A DNA stretch of 51,778 bases from IMG/VR virus record IMGVR_UViG_3300043783_000043, positions 1 to 51,778 of that record, one strand, 5' to 3'. Both the position numbers and the translations under genes were made by a program. The notes under the pieces were generated by a model. It saw nothing but the letters and a program-made list of their open reading frames with translations, did not search any database and was not told the DNA's origin. Below, in pieces: positions 35,995 through 51,778 of this stretch. This DNA is from a virus. Position 1 is the stretch's first letter. The number at the start of each line of letters is the position of its first letter.

Positions 35995-36435
35995 CTATAT
36001 TGCGTGCGAATCCTCGGCTGTATACAGCGTGTTCAGCGTGACGCCTACGCTTGCAGGATTCGCGGGCCACGCGCCCGCCGCCTTCGGCCCGTAGATCGAA
36101 ACGGGGTTGAGTCCGTAGTTGCCAAAACCTGCCCACAATAGGAAGTAGTCGCCGTTCACGCCAATGTCGGCTGTAGGCGCAGACGTACCGAACCATTTCA
36201 ACGCCGGTTGATAGGTCAGTGGCACGGCAAAGAGAAAGTGGCCCCACGGGTCTACGTCACCGCCTGCGTCCGTTGACCGCTTGCTGTATATGTTCCACGC
36301 CTGCACATCAATGTATAGGTCACCGACAACGCCCGCCTGAGGCACAGGTGGCCCGTTGCCACGCGCAATCGAGCCAAACTGCTTGGCCTGGAAATAAATG
36401 CCGCCTTGCATTGTACCGTTGTCAAATCCGGAAAT
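35995..36435 (-). CDS. Virion protein with probable AUU start; tandem paralogue of 36447-37088
   Basis: An in-frame ATG exists at 36411, but it lacks a Shine-Dalgarno and truncates the protein relative to its paralogue. ATT at 36435 has GGGGAGG five bases upstream, and reading from it gives [16 protein letters not shown], aligned with MAGIDNGTSQGGIYFQ of the neighbour. Both share [26 protein letters not shown] and a C-terminal LYTAEDSHA. About 146 aa, beta-rich; a structural or decoration role is likely. Confidence 0.7.
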
Positions 36436-36446
36436 TGGAGCCTCCC

Positions 36447-37088
36447 CTAGAGGGCATGCGAATCCTCCGCCGTATACAGCGCATTCAACGTTACCGCAAC
36501 ATTTGCCGGATTGCTCTGGATGCCGATCTGCAAGACCGGCGTTCCGGCCGCAGTGCCCACAGGCGTCGGCTGCACATATTCGTCCACAATGCCGATTACG
36601 ATCAGTTGCGTCGAACTGCTAAGCGCAATTGGCGCACCTTCGTCCGCGAGTCCGATCGGAAGCACAAAGCCCGCACCTGTATTCGATATGGACGTGTTCG
36701 GACCGTTGCCGTTTTCCGCCCACACACCGAAAGCAGTTTTCGGCCCGTACATGGCAGGCTGGAGGCCGTAGTTGCCGAAACCCGCCCATGCCAAACAGTA
36801 GTCGCCCGTGACGCCCACACTGTCGCCAGGTGCCGACGCGCTGAACCATTTGAGCTGATTTCGGTAAGTGACCGGGACGTTGAAAAGGAAATGGCCCCAT
36901 GGGTCTACGTCGCTCCCGGCTTCGGTAGAGCGTTTCGTGTACAGGTTCCAGGCAGCAACATCTAGATAGAGATCGCCGACAAGCCCGGCTTGCGGCACGG
37001 GCGGCCCGTTGCCGCGCAGGATCGAGCCAAATTGCTTGGCTTGGAAGTATATCCCGCCTTGCGATGTGCCGTTGTCGATGCCTGCCAT
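36447..37088 (-). CDS. Virion protein, 213 aa, paralogue of the following gene
   Basis: It starts [20 protein letters not shown] and shares over half its N-terminal 110 residues and its C-terminus ([13 protein letters not shown]) with the gene at 35995; the extra 65 residues in the middle are an insertion (FGVWAENGNGPNTSISNTGA). Tandem duplication followed by loss in one copy is the likely origin. Its stop overlaps the Shine-Dalgarno of the next gene. Confidence 0.68.
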   Translation of the reverse strand: MAGIDNGTSQGGIYFQAKQFGSILRGNGPPVPQAGLVGDLYLDVAAWNLYTKRSTEAGSDVDPWGHFLFNVPVTYRNQLKWFSASAPGDSVGVTGDYCLAWAGFGNYGLQPAMYGPKTAFGVWAENGNGPNTSISNTGAGFVLPIGLADEGAPIALSSSTQLIVIGIVDEYVQPTPVGTAAGTPVLQIGIQSNPANVAVTLNALYTAEDSHAL

Positions 37089-37092
37089 GGCG

Positions 37093-37515
37093 TCACATCT
37101 GCGCTCCCACGTCTTCGGAGCGCGTTACTTGCATCGCCATGTTGACGCCAGTCCCGTCGCCGTTGTTGATGTTCAGAATGCGGAGCCGCACCCATCCGGC
37201 GCGGTGCGCGCGCCTGGACGTGGCGACTACCATATTCTGCCACTGATCGATAGGCCACGCGTTGCCGCCGGCTACTTGTTCAGCTCCCGACGCCCGCATT
37301 TCCATGAGCACGGACGCCTCCGGGGCGATCGGCGACATGGTGACCGCGCTCATTTGTGCAGAGCTAAAAGCGATCGAAGCGCGAGCGATGTTGATCGAGA
37401 TGTTGTCGCCTGTGTTGATAGGCAGCCAACCAGTTGTTTGCCCGATCGTATCAGCGTAGCAGCAATCAAATTGCCTGTTAAGTGCTTTCGTGCCTCCGCC
37501 TTGTCGGTAGAACAT
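37093..37515 (-). CDS. Virion-region protein, 140 aa
   Basis: It begins MFYRQGGGTKALNRQFDCCY and is beta-rich after that (GWLPINTGDNISINIARASI, VRLRILNINNGDGTGVNMAM), suggesting a jelly-roll or carbohydrate-binding-like fold. It sits 4 nt upstream of the tandem paralogues and 1 nt after the Endo VII-like gene. Structural role inferred from context only. Confidence 0.58.
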   Translation of the reverse strand: MFYRQGGGTKALNRQFDCCYADTIGQTTGWLPINTGDNISINIARASIAFSSAQMSAVTMSPIAPEASVLMEMRASGAEQVAGGNAWPIDQWQNMVVATSRRAHRAGWVRLRILNINNGDGTGVNMAMQVTRSEDVGAQM

Positions 37516-37516
37516 G

Positions 37517-37942
37517 CTATGCCTCCAAGTATCGTACAGCGTTCTGTAGCAAGTCTGTACGATCTTTGAAACAACCGAGTCCTATATTGCAGTGGTGGCA
37601 TAGAAGTCCGCGTACGGCGTCGGTCGCATGATCGTGGTCTACGCAAATCTTAATGCCAATAAACGCAATTCCGCAGATAGCGCATTGAGCACCTTGCGAA
37701 ACAAGCAACGCTTGAAAATCTTCTAAACCCATACCGTATTTGTAGGTAAGCCACGTGGCTTGCCTTCGTTCGGCTGACTTATTTCGAAAAGTCTCATCTC
37801 GGCCGTACCGCTCTTTGGCCTTTTCGATCAGGCAAGCTTGGCAATACGTGCTACCATTAACGCGTTCGCGACGATGCTGTGCAAGGTCATGCCCCCGCTT
37901 GCAAAGCGCTTTACGCTTTGGTCCTGTAGGTCCTCGCATCAT
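37517..37942 (-). CDS. Recombination endonuclease VII-like HNH enzyme
   Basis: 141 aa. CKRGHD with TYCQACLIEKAKERYG forms the first zinc element, followed by GAQCAICG, KICVDHDHATDAVRGLLCHH and CNIGLGCFKD: the Endo VII signature with its catalytic D-H-D-H and zinc cysteines. In T4 the enzyme resolves branched DNA before packaging; copies scattered in structural operons are often mobile homing genes. It is coupled to the gene at 37939. A-rich codons suggest recent insertion. Confidence 0.85.
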   Translation of the reverse strand: MMRGPTGPKRKALCKRGHDLAQHRRERVNGSTYCQACLIEKAKERYGRDETFRNKSAERRQATWLTYKYGMGLEDFQALLVSQGAQCAICGIAFIGIKICVDHDHATDAVRGLLCHHCNIGLGCFKDRTDLLQNAVRYLEA

Positions 37943-38264: not shown

Positions 38265-38411
38265 CTACTTGGATTTGCGCGTGACCGGCTTTTCGCCCTC
38301 TTTGCGCGTGCCGTTGAAGATCATGGCCGCGTGTTTCTTCAACAGCGCGCTGGGCATCTTAGGGTGCCCGGCGCGCAATTCCCGCTTAATCGCTTCGTAC
38401 CGGCGCGGCAT
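38265..38411 (-). CDS. Small phage protein containing the CRISPR spacer homology, 48 aa
   Basis: ATG 38411 gives MPRRYEAIKRELRAGHPKMP followed by SALLKKHAAMIFNGTRK and ending RKSK. Basic and helical. Its codons for ALLKKHAAMI are the region matched by the spacer of the adjacent mini-array (26 of 32 positions, mismatches inside the shared LLKKHAAMI codons synonymous). It begins 11 nt after the array's last repeat, so the array lies in its leader. A relative's allele of this gene is the likely spacer source. Confidence 0.75.
   Translation of the reverse strand: MPRRYEAIKRELRAGHPKMPSALLKKHAAMIFNGTRKEGEKPVTRKSK
38317..38351 (+). other. Protospacer-like match with AAG PAM in the phage's own gene
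   Basis: PAM AAG at 38317-38319, then 38320-38351 aligns with the crRNA-sense spacer. Positions 1-8 (ATCATGGC) are identical, mismatches fall at 9, 23, 28, 29, 31 and 32, the other 26 match. AAG is the canonical type I-E PAM and is on the correct side for the inferred array orientation. This is self-homology to a diverged allele. Confidence 0.85.
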
Positions 38412-38422
38412 GTGGTCTACTT

Positions 38423-38512
38423 CGGTTCATCCCCGCGCGTGCGGGGAACGCGACAAGCTGCTGAAGAAACACGCAGCCATGATCGGTTCATCCCCGCGCA
38501 TGCGGGGAACAT
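38423..38512 (-). CRISPR. Phage-encoded type I-E mini-CRISPR array, one spacer
   Basis: Two 29-nt repeats at 38423-38451 and 38484-38512, both beginning CGGTTCATCCCCGCGC and continuing xTGCGGGGAAC, start exactly 61 nt apart and flank a 32-nt spacer (38452-38483). They differ at one internal base and the last two. The 29+32 geometry, the CCCCGC/GCGGGG stem and the handle AUGAACCG (minus strand) fit type I-E. No cas gene is present, so host Cascade and Cas6e would be needed. The array reads in the same direction as the surrounding minus-strand genes and would be transcribed with them. Confidence 0.92.
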
Positions 38513-38518
38513 GCAGCT

Positions 38519-38854
38519 CTACTTCTTGTTGTAGCCCATGGCCTTCGATGGCTTGCCACCCATGCCTTCTGTGGTGCGCTTGCCGTCCAGGCCAGTCCGC
38601 CGGCCGCCGAAGGCCGTATTGCCGTGGTAGGTCACGCCGTCGTTCAGGCCCCCGCCATCGGATAGGTTCGTTTTGGCGAGCCTGCGGTTGCCGGTGCTGA
38701 TATCGGCGGCGCCGCCGGGAAAGCGTTTCAGTGGCCCCGCAGGCACGGCAGGACGGCCGCCAAATTTGGTTGTCGGCGGGCCCATTAGGTTTGGCGTCAT
38801 GTCATTCTCGCCGCTCGGATTGAAGCCCGTTTTGTGACCGCAAAAGCTTGTCAT
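38519..38854 (-). CDS. Gly/Pro-rich structural-region protein, 111 aa
   Basis: ATG 38854 overlaps the stop of the gene upstream. The protein is Gly, Pro and Lys-rich with little predicted structure (PPTTKFGGRPAVPAGPLKRF, GGLNDGVTYHGNTAFGG). Its stop lies 6 nt before the mini-array, which follows it in the same transcript. It could be a virion linker or glue protein; not recognised. Confidence 0.58.
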   Translation of the reverse strand: MTSFCGHKTGFNPSGENDMTPNLMGPPTTKFGGRPAVPAGPLKRFPGGAADISTGNRRLAKTNLSDGGGLNDGVTYHGNTAFGGRRTGLDGKRTTEGMGGKPSKAMGYNKK

Positions 38855-43632: not shown

Positions 43633-43787
43633 GGCTGTACCGATAGGATGAATTTTGCCTGCCGTAAGTACGCAGCCTTAAACTGCTCTGGCTGCGCCGC
43701 ACACGCTGCTTGCTGCGCTGTTGGTGTCGCTAGCGCGATGTTGTTGTCCAAGATGCAAAGCATCAAAGCAAGCTGAATGACTGTCAT
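43629..43787 (-). CDS. Small exported protein, 52 aa
   Basis: ATG 43787 overlaps the stop of the giant ejection protein. MTVIQLALMLCILDNNIALA is a hydrophobic, signal-like N-terminus; the remainder (TPTAQQAACAAQPEQFKAAY) has one Cys. No family seen. Confidence 0.55.
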   Translation of the reverse strand: MTVIQLALMLCILDNNIALATPTAQQAACAAQPEQFKAAYLRQAKFILSVQP

Positions 43788-46700
43788 TGTGTCATTGCTC
43801 CTACGCCAAGCCGTGCCCCTGCGTATCCGGTAAGATCGCGAACCGTACGGCCTGTACGGGTGCGCTCCGCTTTCGCCGCGGCCAATTCCGGCACAAGGTC
43901 CTCGAATCTTGCCGGGTTGCCGGCCGCCTTTTCGCGTGCCCAACCCGCCAAATCGAGTGCCGATTTCCCTGCGGCGAGGTACTTGCCGATGCCGGGCACG
44001 TTTTCCAGCCGAATTTGACTCAAGATCGATTGTTCGGTGCCTGCCGACGCAGTGCCCGCTTTCACACGCATGGCGTCCCATGCTTTGAGTGCCGATTGAT
44101 CATTTTGCGCAAACGCGCGGAAGGCACGGTCTGCCTGACGGCCCGCTTCGCCTTTAAGCGCCGCAGCTTTATCCAGCTGCATGCCGTTTGTGGCATCCAT
44201 CAGTCGAGCATAGCGCGTATCGAGTACCTTCAAGCGCGCGATCATCTGTCCGCCTTGCTGGTCACCAAATGCAAACGTCGCGGCCTTCTCTTGTTGTTTA
44301 CGTACGCCATCCGCAAGTGCGCGATAGTCTTGTGCTGTTTGCGTACGGCCCGCCGTTGTGCTGGTCATGGCATCGCGTTCAAGGTCTAACAGCGCCGAAC
44401 GTGCATCTTTAAGTTGCACCCATTTTTCCCGCCAATCCTTGGCGGGCGCTGTAACCGCCATCTCCGCACGCTCGGCGGTGTTTTGCATGGCCGGCGACAT
44501 TTTCGCGGTTCGTGCGACAGCGATAGGGCCATCCGGCAGTGTTTGCTGACCCTGTGGCGGGCGCAATTCAGCTTCCCGCAGTACGGCCGCCGGATCGCGA
44601 AATGCGCGGCCAGTACCCATCTCGCCTTCAAGTTGCTGATAGCCCGCACCGATACGTGCTCGCTCGACCGCCGCCGGCCGCGTCACCTCGGCTTCACGTT
44701 GTGGCACGCCTTCCGCCGTGACCTTGTGTGCGTACGCGGCTTCATCGGGCTTCAATCCTGCGTCCTTAAGTACGGTTTCTGCTTCTGTACGCGCCTTGTC
44801 CGCAGCGTCGTACTTCGGATTTGGCGCGGCGCCAGTCGGTCCTGCGATCTTCGGTTGTTCCGTTTTCAGGACTTCATCCGCATCGTAGAACTTTTTTGCG
44901 GCGCTCTGTATCGCGGTTTGCGCGTCAGGCGAGAACATTGACCATACCTTGTGGCCGGCCATGCCAAGCGCGCGGCCAAACATTTCACTCAGCCCCGCGC
45001 CCGCTGCCCCCTGCGTGGCGGCTTCGGCCACGTCGCCTGCGTCGCCACCCTCGATAGCCTTGGCGCCGCCCTCGACAGCACCCGCGCCAAGCGTACGCGT
45101 CAGCGCGCCAACGACAGGCCGCCCCTCGGGCGCAACGCCAAGCACACCTCCCAGGGCGCCCTGCTTTGCAATCTCGGTCGGGTTTTGCGGATTGCCACTG
45201 AACCAGTCTTTGAGTATCTGACCGCCCGCGCCGCCCGCAGCGCCGCCGCCGACAACGCCCGCGGGCCCGGCCATGCCGCCGGCCATGGCGCCAACTATCG
45301 AACCGCCTTCGGGGCCGTATTGCTTCGTTGCTTCAACGCCGCCTTCCGCATCACGACCGAACAGCAGCCCGGCAGCCACCCTCTTGTACCACGGCATTTC
45401 ACCGTAGTTCTTAGAGATAGCTTCGGCCTCAGTCATGCGCGGTGCGCGCTGATTCGCTGACAGGGGAGGCGCTTCGGTGCTTCCGCTGGCCAGCATGCGC
45501 GCGCCCGCTGCGGCGCCCGTTGGTGCATCCGTGCCGTTGTAGCGCGCCTCCCACAGACGTGTGAAATCGCCCGACGTAACCTTGTTAACGTCGCCACCCG
45601 CCGCCGCGCGCATTGTAGGCGTCATGTTGCCCCAAACGGCCTGCTTGGCGAGCGAATCCGTACGGTAGTACGGCTTTAGGTTCTGCCACGCTACGCCGTC
45701 CGGATTGTGCAAATGCGCTTCCAATCCGGCCTCGCCTTGTTGGTGCATCAAATAGACGTTTGCAGCCGTTGCCGGGAAGCCGTCCTTTGTCAGCTTTGCC
45801 GCGCGGGTCTGCATATCCGTCTTGAGCGCCGTACGGGTTTGCTCAACGTCATCGGGGTCAGTGATGCCATGACTTAGCATCTCCCCTTTCGACCACTGGC
45901 CGAGCCCAACATACGAGCCTGTCTTCTGGTTGGGCTTAAAACCGCTTTCCATTTGAATCGTACGGTTCGCCGCAGCGTCTAACGCTTGCGGGTTGTCGAG
46001 CTTCATTCCGGGCGGAAGCCCACTACGGCCCGGAGTACTACCGCCGACCGGTGGCGAAGGCGTGCCGTCCGGGCGCGTTGGTCCGCCACCCGCCGCAGGC
46101 CCAAAGGTGCCACCGGTTGCACCCATGGTCGAGGGGTTACCCGCGGCGGGTGGCGAAGACGGCTGTTGTACGGGCGCGGCAGTAGTCGCGCCCGGAATGC
46201 TGCTGCCCGTGGGGAGCATGACACGCCGATCGCCGACTGCGACCATCGGATAACCGGCAATCTCGCGTTTGCTGTTGGCAACGGCGCTGTTGTACGTTGC
46301 CAGCAATTGCGGATCGCCGGTCAATTCTTTCGAAAGCCCTAAATCTTCCAAATTCATGCCGTAGCGGCCGGCGGTCTTGAATGGCTGACTAAGACGCTCA
46401 CTCGCCTCTTTCACCAATTCTTGATGATTGAAATTGGCAACCGCCTTAATGCCTTCGATCGAAGGCGGCGCTGCACGCTGTGACGCCGGCTTTCCGAACC
46501 ACTCCTTAAGTGCTGCGGTTTCGTTCGCAATCGTATTGCGCGCCTTGTCGATGTTGCCGTACTTTGCTTCTAACATTTTCGTCAGGCCGATACTGCCCGC
46601 GGCCTTTGTGCCTTCCGCAACGTCGCGGCCAACCGCGCCAAGAGCGTCAGACAGGTACGCCATGCCCGCGGCGGATTTGTACAGGTCCGGGTTGTTTGCA

Positions 46701-47791
46701 GCAGTGACAAAATCGCGACTGATCTTGTACTTGCTAAGTAAGCCCTTGACTTCGTCAGCACCGAGCTGTCCGGTAACGGTTTTGATTTGATCAGGCGACG
46801 CGGTGTTCCACGTTTTGCCGAAATTGTTAATGTCCTTCGAACCGGGCGGTCCTTGTACGCCTTGCTGATCGCCATAGCCAGGCAATGTCACAGCCTTGAA
46901 ACCGGGCACTTGTTCGCTGTTGCTGAACTGGTAGCTACCTTCGATGCGGCCGGCGACCTTTTCATCCGTGATCGGCACAGCCTGCCCGAGTTGGTTTTGC
47001 CGTACAAAAAAGTTGCTCACCATGCGATCAGCGTTGCTATACTTTGCTGTGATCGCTGCGCCGCTGCGTTTCCAGTCATCGACCTTCTGCGGCACTTGGC
47101 CGGGCTTAAGGCCGATGGAGCCCCAATCTTGGTCGCTAAGGCCGTTACGTACAGAATCGTATGCTTGCTGATCACGGTGCTGCGCCGCCGCATTGAGTGC
47201 AGTCAGACCTTGCTGCACAACGCCGATATGCTGTTGCAATTTCCCGATCGCTTCTGGCGCATACAAGTTCGCTCGCGCCGCCCATTCGGGTGATGTGCCC
47301 TGCAGAGCGAGATAAGCGTTGTAACTACCTTCCTCTTTCCACTGCCGCAGTTGCTCGTTAGCGAGGGTATCGTCGGTAGCCGCTGCACCGAACTGTCCGG
47401 GATTGCGCAATCCCTGATTCACGGCACGTTGCTGTATGTCGATTTGATGCTGTTTTTGTTGCTGAATGGCAAGCCATTTTTCTGCAATTTGGGGGATGGC
47501 CTGCCGCGCTTCGTCAGCACCGCCGAATATTTGCGCCCATGGATTGGTAGCGATCCACTGTGCCCGCTCACTTTGCTGGCGCAACTGATTCGCGGCAGCG
47601 TCAAGCGGCGATGAGTTAGGAGGTGCAGGATCGTAGCGCGGGCCAAAAAGACTGCCATGAGGGCCGAGGAACGAGCCGCCAAAACCGCTGCTTTGCGGCT
47701 GCTGGTCACTGTTTTGCGGGGGCGCCGGCGGTTGCTGATCGCCGCTAAAGTTCAACCCGCTGCCGAATTGCCCGCTATCGCCATCCGCCAT
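43784..47791 (-). CDS. Giant internal virion/DNA ejection protein with transglycosylase-like region, 1335 aa
   Basis: A Gln/Pro-rich N-terminus, helical repeats, then around residues 600-710 a lytic transglycosylase-like stretch (NRTIQMESGFKPNQ with the catalytic Glu, GLGQWSKGEML, NVYLMHQQGEAGL), then a hydrophobic Gly/Ala region near 830-870 (GPEGGSIVGAMAGGMAGPAG) and a helical C-terminus. This resembles T7 gp16 and P22 gp16-type proteins that open peptidoglycan and form a conduit during DNA entry. It is by far the longest gene here. Confidence 0.75.
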   Translation of the reverse strand: MADGDSGQFGSGLNFSGDQQPPAPPQNSDQQPQSSGFGGSFLGPHGSLFGPRYDPAPPNSSPLDAAANQLRQQSERAQWIATNPWAQIFGGADEARQAIPQIAEKWLAIQQQKQHQIDIQQRAVNQGLRNPGQFGAAATDDTLANEQLRQWKEEGSYNAYLALQGTSPEWAARANLYAPEAIGKLQQHIGVVQQGLTALNAAAQHRDQQAYDSVRNGLSDQDWGSIGLKPGQVPQKVDDWKRSGAAITAKYSNADRMVSNFFVRQNQLGQAVPITDEKVAGRIEGSYQFSNSEQVPGFKAVTLPGYGDQQGVQGPPGSKDINNFGKTWNTASPDQIKTVTGQLGADEVKGLLSKYKISRDFVTAANNPDLYKSAAGMAYLSDALGAVGRDVAEGTKAAGSIGLTKMLEAKYGNIDKARNTIANETAALKEWFGKPASQRAAPPSIEGIKAVANFNHQELVKEASERLSQPFKTAGRYGMNLEDLGLSKELTGDPQLLATYNSAVANSKREIAGYPMVAVGDRRVMLPTGSSIPGATTAAPVQQPSSPPAAGNPSTMGATGGTFGPAAGGGPTRPDGTPSPPVGGSTPGRSGLPPGMKLDNPQALDAAANRTIQMESGFKPNQKTGSYVGLGQWSKGEMLSHGITDPDDVEQTRTALKTDMQTRAAKLTKDGFPATAANVYLMHQQGEAGLEAHLHNPDGVAWQNLKPYYRTDSLAKQAVWGNMTPTMRAAAGGDVNKVTSGDFTRLWEARYNGTDAPTGAAAGARMLASGSTEAPPLSANQRAPRMTEAEAISKNYGEMPWYKRVAAGLLFGRDAEGGVEATKQYGPEGGSIVGAMAGGMAGPAGVVGGGAAGGAGGQILKDWFSGNPQNPTEIAKQGALGGVLGVAPEGRPVVGALTRTLGAGAVEGGAKAIEGGDAGDVAEAATQGAAGAGLSEMFGRALGMAGHKVWSMFSPDAQTAIQSAAKKFYDADEVLKTEQPKIAGPTGAAPNPKYDAADKARTEAETVLKDAGLKPDEAAYAHKVTAEGVPQREAEVTRPAAVERARIGAGYQQLEGEMGTGRAFRDPAAVLREAELRPPQGQQTLPDGPIAVARTAKMSPAMQNTAERAEMAVTAPAKDWREKWVQLKDARSALLDLERDAMTSTTAGRTQTAQDYRALADGVRKQQEKAATFAFGDQQGGQMIARLKVLDTRYARLMDATNGMQLDKAAALKGEAGRQADRAFRAFAQNDQSALKAWDAMRVKAGTASAGTEQSILSQIRLENVPGIGKYLAAGKSALDLAGWAREKAAGNPARFEDLVPELAAAKAERTRTGRTVRDLTGYAGARLGVGAMTQ

Positions 47792-51166: not shown

Positions 51167-51682
51167 ATGGGCTTTTTGCGCGGACAGCGGACTGCTGGCG
51201 GATTCCCGCCCAACGGCCAAATGAGCAATCCTGATCCCGGCCGGCACTCCAGGGATGGATGGCAATTCGTCGCAGAGCGCGAAAGCATCCAACTCCAAGG
51301 CAAGCAATACCGGCACATGAAAGAATGGTCGCGACCATGCGCAATCTGCGGCACTCATTTCTCGATCTTTGAGAAGAGCGGCGCTGTGGATGCCAATTCA
51401 CGATTCGGCAACAAGACGTGCGAACACCATCGCGGATTGCTTCCTGCAATGGAAAAAGGCCTGATCAAATGGGATACTGGCACAAAACGATTAGTTGCCG
51501 GCCTCATGCTCGGCACGGACCCTACGCAACCACTCGGCGACATGACCACGGTGGAGCAATTTCAAATGATCAAAAGCACTATGGAACAAGAGATCGCGTG
51601 CCTAAATGAAGACAATACGCGTTTGTTCGCTGAAAACAAACAACTGCGCGCCGAACTCGCTAAACAAAAAGGCCCGTGGTAG
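51167..51682 (+). CDS. Zn-motif protein with C-terminal coiled coil, 171 aa
   Basis: ATG 51167 follows AGGAGAGCAGAAA. RPCAICGTHFSIFEKSGAVD and NKTCEHHRGLLP form a C-x2-C...C-x2-H zinc site shared with the gene at 1967. The C-terminal MIKSTMEQEIACLNEDNTRL continues as a leucine-zipper-like coiled coil ending AELAKQKGPW. A DNA-binding regulator with a dimerisation helix is a reasonable guess. Its last 13 codons fall in the terminal repeat. Confidence 0.7.
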   Translation: MGFLRGQRTAGGFPPNGQMSNPDPGRHSRDGWQFVAERESIQLQGKQYRHMKEWSRPCAICGTHFSIFEKSGAVDANSRFGNKTCEHHRGLLPAMEKGLIKWDTGTKRLVAGLMLGTDPTQPLGDMTTVEQFQMIKSTMEQEIACLNEDNTRLFAENKQLRAELAKQKGPW

Positions 51683-51778
51683 TCCTTAGTGATCACAATT
51701 TCGTGATATGCGTATCCTTAAGGACAGGTATGCAAAAATAGTTCTTGCAATCCTTTAGGACTGTGCTAAATTAAGCAT
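51643..51778. repeat. Direct terminal repeat, right copy
   Basis: Same sequence as 1-136, except A at 51769, which makes the -10 hexamer TAAATT instead of TAGATT. It contains the end of the 51167 gene, the TCCTTWAGGA cluster and the first promoter, so the transcript crosses the junction into the gene at 160. Confidence 0.9.

Follow-up and report, generated by a model that had tools for sequence, protein, structure and literature searches.

The Saccharolobus portogloboviruses SPV1 and SPV2 carry mini-CRISPR arrays of one or two spacers, with targets in close relatives near the position of the array, and their own corresponding sites are mutated (Medvedeva et al., 2019; PMC6858448). Why such virus-borne arrays lie so near to their targets was called unclear by Medvedeva and others (PMC6858448). 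Mini-arrays of bacteriophages and prophages were described by Faure and others in 2019 as leaderless and devoid of cas genes, with some spacers directed at adjacent genes in close relatives of the carrier phage and not at the carrier itself, as this work is relayed in PMC6858448 and PMC7099407. Phage mini-arrays directed against relatives are also covered in a 2024 review (PMC11656645). Another group of phage-encoded repeats is formed by the Racr RNA anti-CRISPRs, which are solitary repeat units, and of these RacrIE1/2 inhibit a type I-E system (Camara-Wilpert et al., 2023; PMC10651486).

The locus analysed here lies at 38423-38512 of the window, the whole stretch of DNA under study, which is a phage genome of about 51.8 kb (51,778 bases) with matching ends. 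It is a complete type I-E repeat-spacer-repeat unit of 29+32+29 nt, with its crRNA strand on the minus strand. Like the arrays of SPV1 and SPV2, which hold one or two spacers, it has no cas genes, is intergenic and targets close relatives near the position of the array; its spacer matches the relatives at 31/32 and 30/32 positions and the carrier's altered own site at 26/32. The orthologous site is mutated or deleted in SPV1 and SPV2, and that of the window is altered too, yet it keeps its PAM and seed. Moreover, SPV1 and SPV2 are archaeal non-lytic viruses with host-like leaders, whereas the window carries a type I-E array in a tailed bacteriophage, with no recognisable leader. No principled difference was found from the arrays of Faure and others, as far as these are relayed in later papers.

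Since the locus fits the description of Medvedeva and others, and that of Faure and others as relayed, the use of a mini-array by a phage is a trick already known, and the window is an unusually clean fresh type I-E case of it. The novelty expected in the original prediction, which held such an array in a bacterial virus to be notable, is accordingly smaller than claimed (PMC6858448, citing Faure et al., 2019; PMC11656645). The locus contributes a type I-E phage lineage in which the arrangement can be reconstructed base by base, with relatives that retain the empty site and a diverged own target that keeps PAM and seed. Like the Racr units, it consists of phage-encoded CRISPR repeats that are expected to engage host Cas6 and Cascade; a Racr unit is a single repeat with no spacer target, whereas the window has two full repeats, a spacer and a target in relatives, and it does not belong with them. 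In CreTA/CreR-type crRNA-like regulators, PAM and seed fit a nearby site of the carrier itself and the rest of the match is imperfect. The window array likewise has a nearby partial self-match with PAM and seed present. Unlike in CreTA/CreR, the spacer has no visible target in a toxin or cas promoter, as the target lies inside the coding sequence of a gene (codons about 20-30); the repeats are not degenerate, and the best match of the spacer is in other phages. The targeted gene matches no known family and could, formally, still encode a toxin.

In the direction of transcription, the first repeat (ATGTTCCCCGCATGCGCGGGGATGAACCG) occupies 38484-38512, the 32-nt spacer (ATCATGGCTGCGTGTTTCTTCAGCAGCTTGTC) 38452-38483 and the second repeat (GCGTTCCCCGCACGCGCGGGGATGAACCG) 38423-38451, all on the minus strand. 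The repeat starts are 61 nt apart, and the two 29-mers are unlike at three positions, namely the first two bases and one base of the loop. Both retain an intact CCCCGC...GCGGGG stem and the 8-nt handle AUGAACCG that are characteristic of type I-E, and the spacer has the 32-nt length of that type, with a target that adjoins an AAG PAM in both close relatives and at the carrier's own site. In the window the I-E motif is present at these two places only, and 100 dinucleotide shuffles contained no copy of it even when up to 3 mismatches were tolerated. The one-spacer type I-E mini-array of the original prediction is thus correct to the base. A random hairpin duplication, named there as an outcome that would undo the reading, was ruled out by the lack of shuffle matches, the exact I-E architecture and the PAM-flanked target in relatives. 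A fragment of host DNA was also ruled out, because the flanks of the array are phage genes. An artefact of assembly or of a contig end is unlikely, given that the flanks can each be aligned to relatives and that the repeats are not identical.

Models of Cas1, Cas6e, Cse1 and Cas5 found no match in the window record, which bears out the earlier description of a phage without cas genes and makes the locus an array and not a CRISPR-Cas system. An identical 27-nt repeat core, in tandem and with a spacing of about 61 nt, was found in 97 stretches of bacterial genomes. Bradyrhizobium and related hosts had been named for a comparison of the repeat; the matches extend over several proteobacterial classes, which make up most of them, and in some cases beyond, with no Bradyrhizobium among the matches listed, and this speaks neither for nor against a Bradyrhizobium host. 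An exact or near-exact search for the spacer in 84,980 species genomes found nothing. Among 2152 spacers from arrays of the same repeat type, there was one seed-length match to the phage, a weak one of 20 nt in a Burkholderiaceae MAG, with GTA in the PAM position.

The target of the spacer lies in gene X, a 48-codon ORF (MPRRYEAIKRELRAGHPKMPSALLKKHAAMIFNGTRKEGEKPVTRKSK; 38265-38411, minus strand) located directly downstream of the array. Upstream, on the same strand, is gene Y, an ORF of 111 aa (38519-38854); neither gene has a Pfam or PHROG match. Relatives were sought in IMG/VR with gene X and TerL as queries, which gave two close ones: G001 (3300037840_000115), with about 89% nucleotide identity to the window across the aligned parts, and G002 (3300050821_003379; 52.7 kb), with about 83-87% over the aligned parts. 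Gene X of G001 matches the spacer at 31/32 positions and that of G002 at 30/32, both next to an AAG PAM, and a 31/32 match has a chance expectation of about 1e-12. No perfect 32/32 target was found; position 9 is mismatched in every match. Read in the frame of gene X, the spacer encodes D-K-L-L-K-K-H-A-A-M-I, the same residues as in the relatives, while the window has S-A-L-L-K-K-H-A-A-M-I, and the differences between the spacer and gene X of the two relatives all fall at silent codon positions. As the spacer encodes the relatives' residues and its other differences are silent, it was most likely derived from gene X of a relative, whose copy it fits better than the one carried by the window itself.

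The own copy contains a partial protospacer at 38320-38351 (plus strand) that matches the spacer at 26/32 positions, with mismatches at spacer positions 9, 23, 28, 29, 31 and 32; its AAG PAM (38317-38319, plus strand) is conserved in both relatives. The resemblance of the spacer to the reverse complement of 38320-38346 (inverted repeat I1) had escaped the reader behind the original prediction. The distance from the array to this own target is 71 bp, and a match of 26/32 is expected by chance about 4e-6 times in the window genome. An Rfam match to MIR837 over 38319-38484 was set aside, being far under the gathering score and a mere reflection of the inverted repeat between spacer and gene X. 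The PAM and seed are retained, and four of the six mismatches are PAM-distal.

In a three-way alignment of the window with G001 and G002, two close relatives only, about 7.6 kb could be compared (7557 aligned 6-mers), and at least four window-specific changes within 6 nt occur in only two places, at 36460 and at 38346-38352. The latter cluster coincides with the PAM-distal end of the own protospacer, and the chance of landing on the protospacer is about 1%. It also contains the only residue changes of gene X that set the window apart from both relatives, D20S and K21A (residues 21 and 22 if counted from the first Met). More distant relatives (L026-L028) have D/E-A at the changed codons, with GCG (Ala) at the second one; the alanine may accordingly be old, which would make part of the change ancestral and not the product of escape.

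The consequence of such mismatches is known from E. coli, where targets mismatched at positions 25-32 were bound by Cascade as well as a perfect target, with undetectable interference, and adaptation was still primed (PMC5904413). By analogy, the own site, which is not among the variants of that study, is predicted to be bound by Cascade and not cut. Self-targeting may not be fully avoided, since PAM and seed persist there and, up to position 27, only positions 9 and 23 are mismatched.

Both G001 and G002 have the same order of gene Y and gene X and the same junction, and lack the array. As both flanks align to these two array-less phages, the array represents a genuine insertion, about 100 bp long. 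In G002 the empty site reads AACAAGAAGTAGACCGCATGCCGCGC; the filled site of the window reads AACAAGAAGTAGAGCTGCATG-[TTCCCC...array...GAACC]-GAAGTAGACCACATGCCGCGC. The downstream flank (GAAGTAGACCACATG; 38409-38423, minus strand) is the native junction between the gene Y stop and the gene X start, which reads GAAGTAGACCGCATG in G002, and the upstream flank (GAAGTAGAGCTGCATG; 38510-38525, minus strand) is an imperfect copy of it that shares 3 nt with the start of the repeat. The junction GAAGTAGAnC..CATG is thus present, imperfectly, on both sides of the array, and its upstream copy ends in GCATG, running into the repeat. We infer that this duplication arose by template switching or microhomology-mediated capture.

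The array sits between two co-directional phage genes, and the strand of their operon is the right one for crRNA production. Neither a leader nor a sigma-70-like promoter was recognisable near it, and for this reason any RNA of the array would probably be part of the operon transcript. At 37514-37942, some 0.5 kb from the array, there is an ORF of 141 aa that matches Endonuclease_7 (PF02945) and is missing in both close relatives. It is possibly a free-standing homing-type endonuclease, and a family of homing endonucleases with an Endo VII motif has been described (PMC6083498).

Similar arrays were sought in 2.9 million viral contigs by way of adjacent repeat pairs of the 27-nt core type; 21 contigs were returned, several of them with only one to three spacers. 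Among the array contigs searched, Cse1 was found in one only (G017). The contigs G008 (L171-L173) and G016 (L174-L176), almost identical to each other but not related to the window, carry a type I-E array of three spacers and have no match to Cse1, Cas5, Cas6e or Cas1. Their spacer 1 matches at 22/32 positions a site in an own gene 78 bp away, and spacer 3 matches at 24/32 another own gene site 1246 bp away, both with an ATG PAM and with mismatches that are mainly PAM-distal; the spacers of G008 are parallel to these partial targets. A search of IMG/VR for full targets of the G008 spacers recovered only G008 and G016 themselves.

Other contigs show related arrangements. An 8.5-kb contig (L008) has a one-spacer type I-E array whose spacer matches the contig itself at 31/32 positions, at a distance of 370 bp and behind ACG, which is not a usual I-E PAM. 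The related contigs L005, L007, L010 and L011 have type I-E arrays of 4-5 spacers, one of which is duplicated in L011; in this group, a nearby sequence of the contig itself, which resembles a ribosome-binding site with a start codon, is matched perfectly by a 33-nt spacer and has the non-consensus neighbours TGA/CCA. From these sequences, nearby partial self-targets are recurrent, as they are seen in G008/G016, in L008 and in the L005 group. A further pair, G011 (L168) and G019 (L169), is 99.9% identical across 16.4 kb and shares the same one-spacer type I-E mini-array, whose spacer has no target among the loci compared.

Taken at the level of sequence, the window locus is rather likely to be a leaderless, cas-less type I-E mini-CRISPR array that acts in inter-phage conflict while sparing its carrier. 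The array would be transcribed within the minus-strand phage operon, host Cas6e would cut at the repeats, and the resulting crRNA would load into Cascade of the host. A rival like G001 or G002 that shares the cell by co-infection, or enters it later by superinfection, would then be destroyed by Cascade and Cas3, while the carrier's gene X would probably be bound, with an attack that is weak or nil, as its PAM-distal part could not complete the R-loop. The spacer itself would most likely have been taken from a relative by the type I-E adaptation machinery of a host. Illegitimate, template-switch-like recombination would afterwards have placed a copy of the repeat-spacer-repeat unit in the phage and duplicated the 15-16 nt junction.

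The weapon reading is favoured because the spacer fits the relatives, with AAG, better than the carrier and because those relatives lack the array; the exact I-E architecture, the cluster of PAM-distal changes, binding without interference in E. coli (PMC5904413), the parallel in G008 and the archaeal and phage precedents argue for it as well. Its central element, that a cas-less array exploits Cascade and Cas6e of the host as a weapon, had been proposed in the original prediction, and it gains support here from the AAG-flanked targets in both relatives, the missing cas genes and the matching bacterial repeats. The locus would be a compact case of a phage apparently turning the immune system of its host on close relatives, with the relatives, the empty site and the altered target of the carrier visible at base resolution. 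The prediction that relatives are cut, and the self site bound without being cut, is open to testing by ordinary plasmid assays in type I-E E. coli. In addition, array and target lie a short distance apart here and again in an unrelated phage, so that the reason for this proximity in viral mini-arrays becomes testable.

Several rival explanations have to be weighed against this conflict reading. The array could be a neutral relic without selected function, a piece of some host I-E array picked up by illegitimate recombination; its spacer would hit relatives because host spacers are anti-phage memories. The lack of a leader or promoter match, the duplicated junction with its microhomology, which resembles random capture, and the absence of the array from both close relatives all suit such an origin. 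However, stems, handle and the exact 61-nt spacing are intact in both repeats, the array has the same strand as the operon, the unrelated G008 also has adjacent partial self-targets, and a distance of 71 bp to the target is expected in roughly 1% or less of random captures into a 52-kb genome; a relic is therefore unlikely. Slightly less probable still is an extension of the weapon model in which the array serves RNA-guided homing, or marker exclusion: in a mixed infection, gene X of an array-less rival would be cut, and repair from the carrier would copy both the array and the resistant allele, by which the array would spread. The two are just 71 bp apart in conserved synteny, virus mini-arrays near their targets have been reported and left unexplained (PMC6858448), and the Endonuclease_7-type insertion lies close by, with a homing family of that motif known (PMC6083498). 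On the other hand, the identity to G001 does not stand out near the array, and Cas3 degrades long stretches and may destroy the recipient before repair. If true, homing would be a host-dependent counterpart, through borrowed Cascade, of the free-standing homing endonucleases of phages, and would explain why viral mini-arrays lie beside their own targets.

The remaining readings give the array a role inside its own phage or against the host machinery. In a CreA-like self-regulation, which we regard as improbable, the partly matching crRNA would steer Cascade to the own gene X and repress or roadblock it without cutting. The own AAG PAM and seed, combined with PAM-distal mismatches, form the configuration that gives binding without interference in E. 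coli (PMC5904413), and G008 has a similar one; but selection for self-binding should have produced a spacer that fits the own gene best, and here gene X of the relatives is the closer match; moreover, the own target lies in a coding region and not in a promoter, and off-target Cascade sites were without transcriptional effect (Cooper et al.; PMC5904413). An equally small chance is given to a decoy, a phage crRNA that competes with host crRNAs for Cas6e and Cascade and protects the phage as RNA anti-CRISPRs do. The solitary I-E repeats RacrIE1/2 provide the precedent for inhibition of a I-E system (PMC10651486), whereas two complete repeats, a correctly sized spacer and a PAM-flanked target in relatives are more than a decoy needs. 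Least probable, and very doubtful, is a Cascade-independent control in cis, in which the spacer would pair as antisense with gene X in the polycistronic mRNA and form an RNA hairpin. The 259-nt segment does fold with spacer and gene X paired, at -131.2 kcal/mol (z = -6.4), but this pairing follows automatically from a spacer that matches an adjacent gene on the opposite strand. The I-E repeats and the PAM would also be left unexplained, and in G008, whose spacers are parallel to their partial targets, no hairpin would form.

With regard to the carrier, its first ~137 bases (1-137) recur at 51642-51778 with one visible difference, and this terminal repeat indicates that the record is probably a complete genome, circular or terminally redundant. 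The window encodes TerL, a portal protein, a DNA polymerase A, a primase/helicase, an endolysin and a tail-fibre-type protein. The phage had been called a virulent podovirus; the first word has as its sole basis that models of tyrosine integrase and serine resolvase are without a match in the window genome, and the second goes back solely to distant similarity in packaging and portal proteins. The nearest isolate phages have about 30% identity in TerL and primase, and an inference of the host through them was dropped as too distant. A minus-strand ORF of 1335 aa, without a PHROG or PADLOC match, spans 43784-47791. Finally, 36083-36423 and 36739-37078 cross-match in BLAST at ~73% identity, a feature common to G001 and G002, which suggests a duplicated gene segment.
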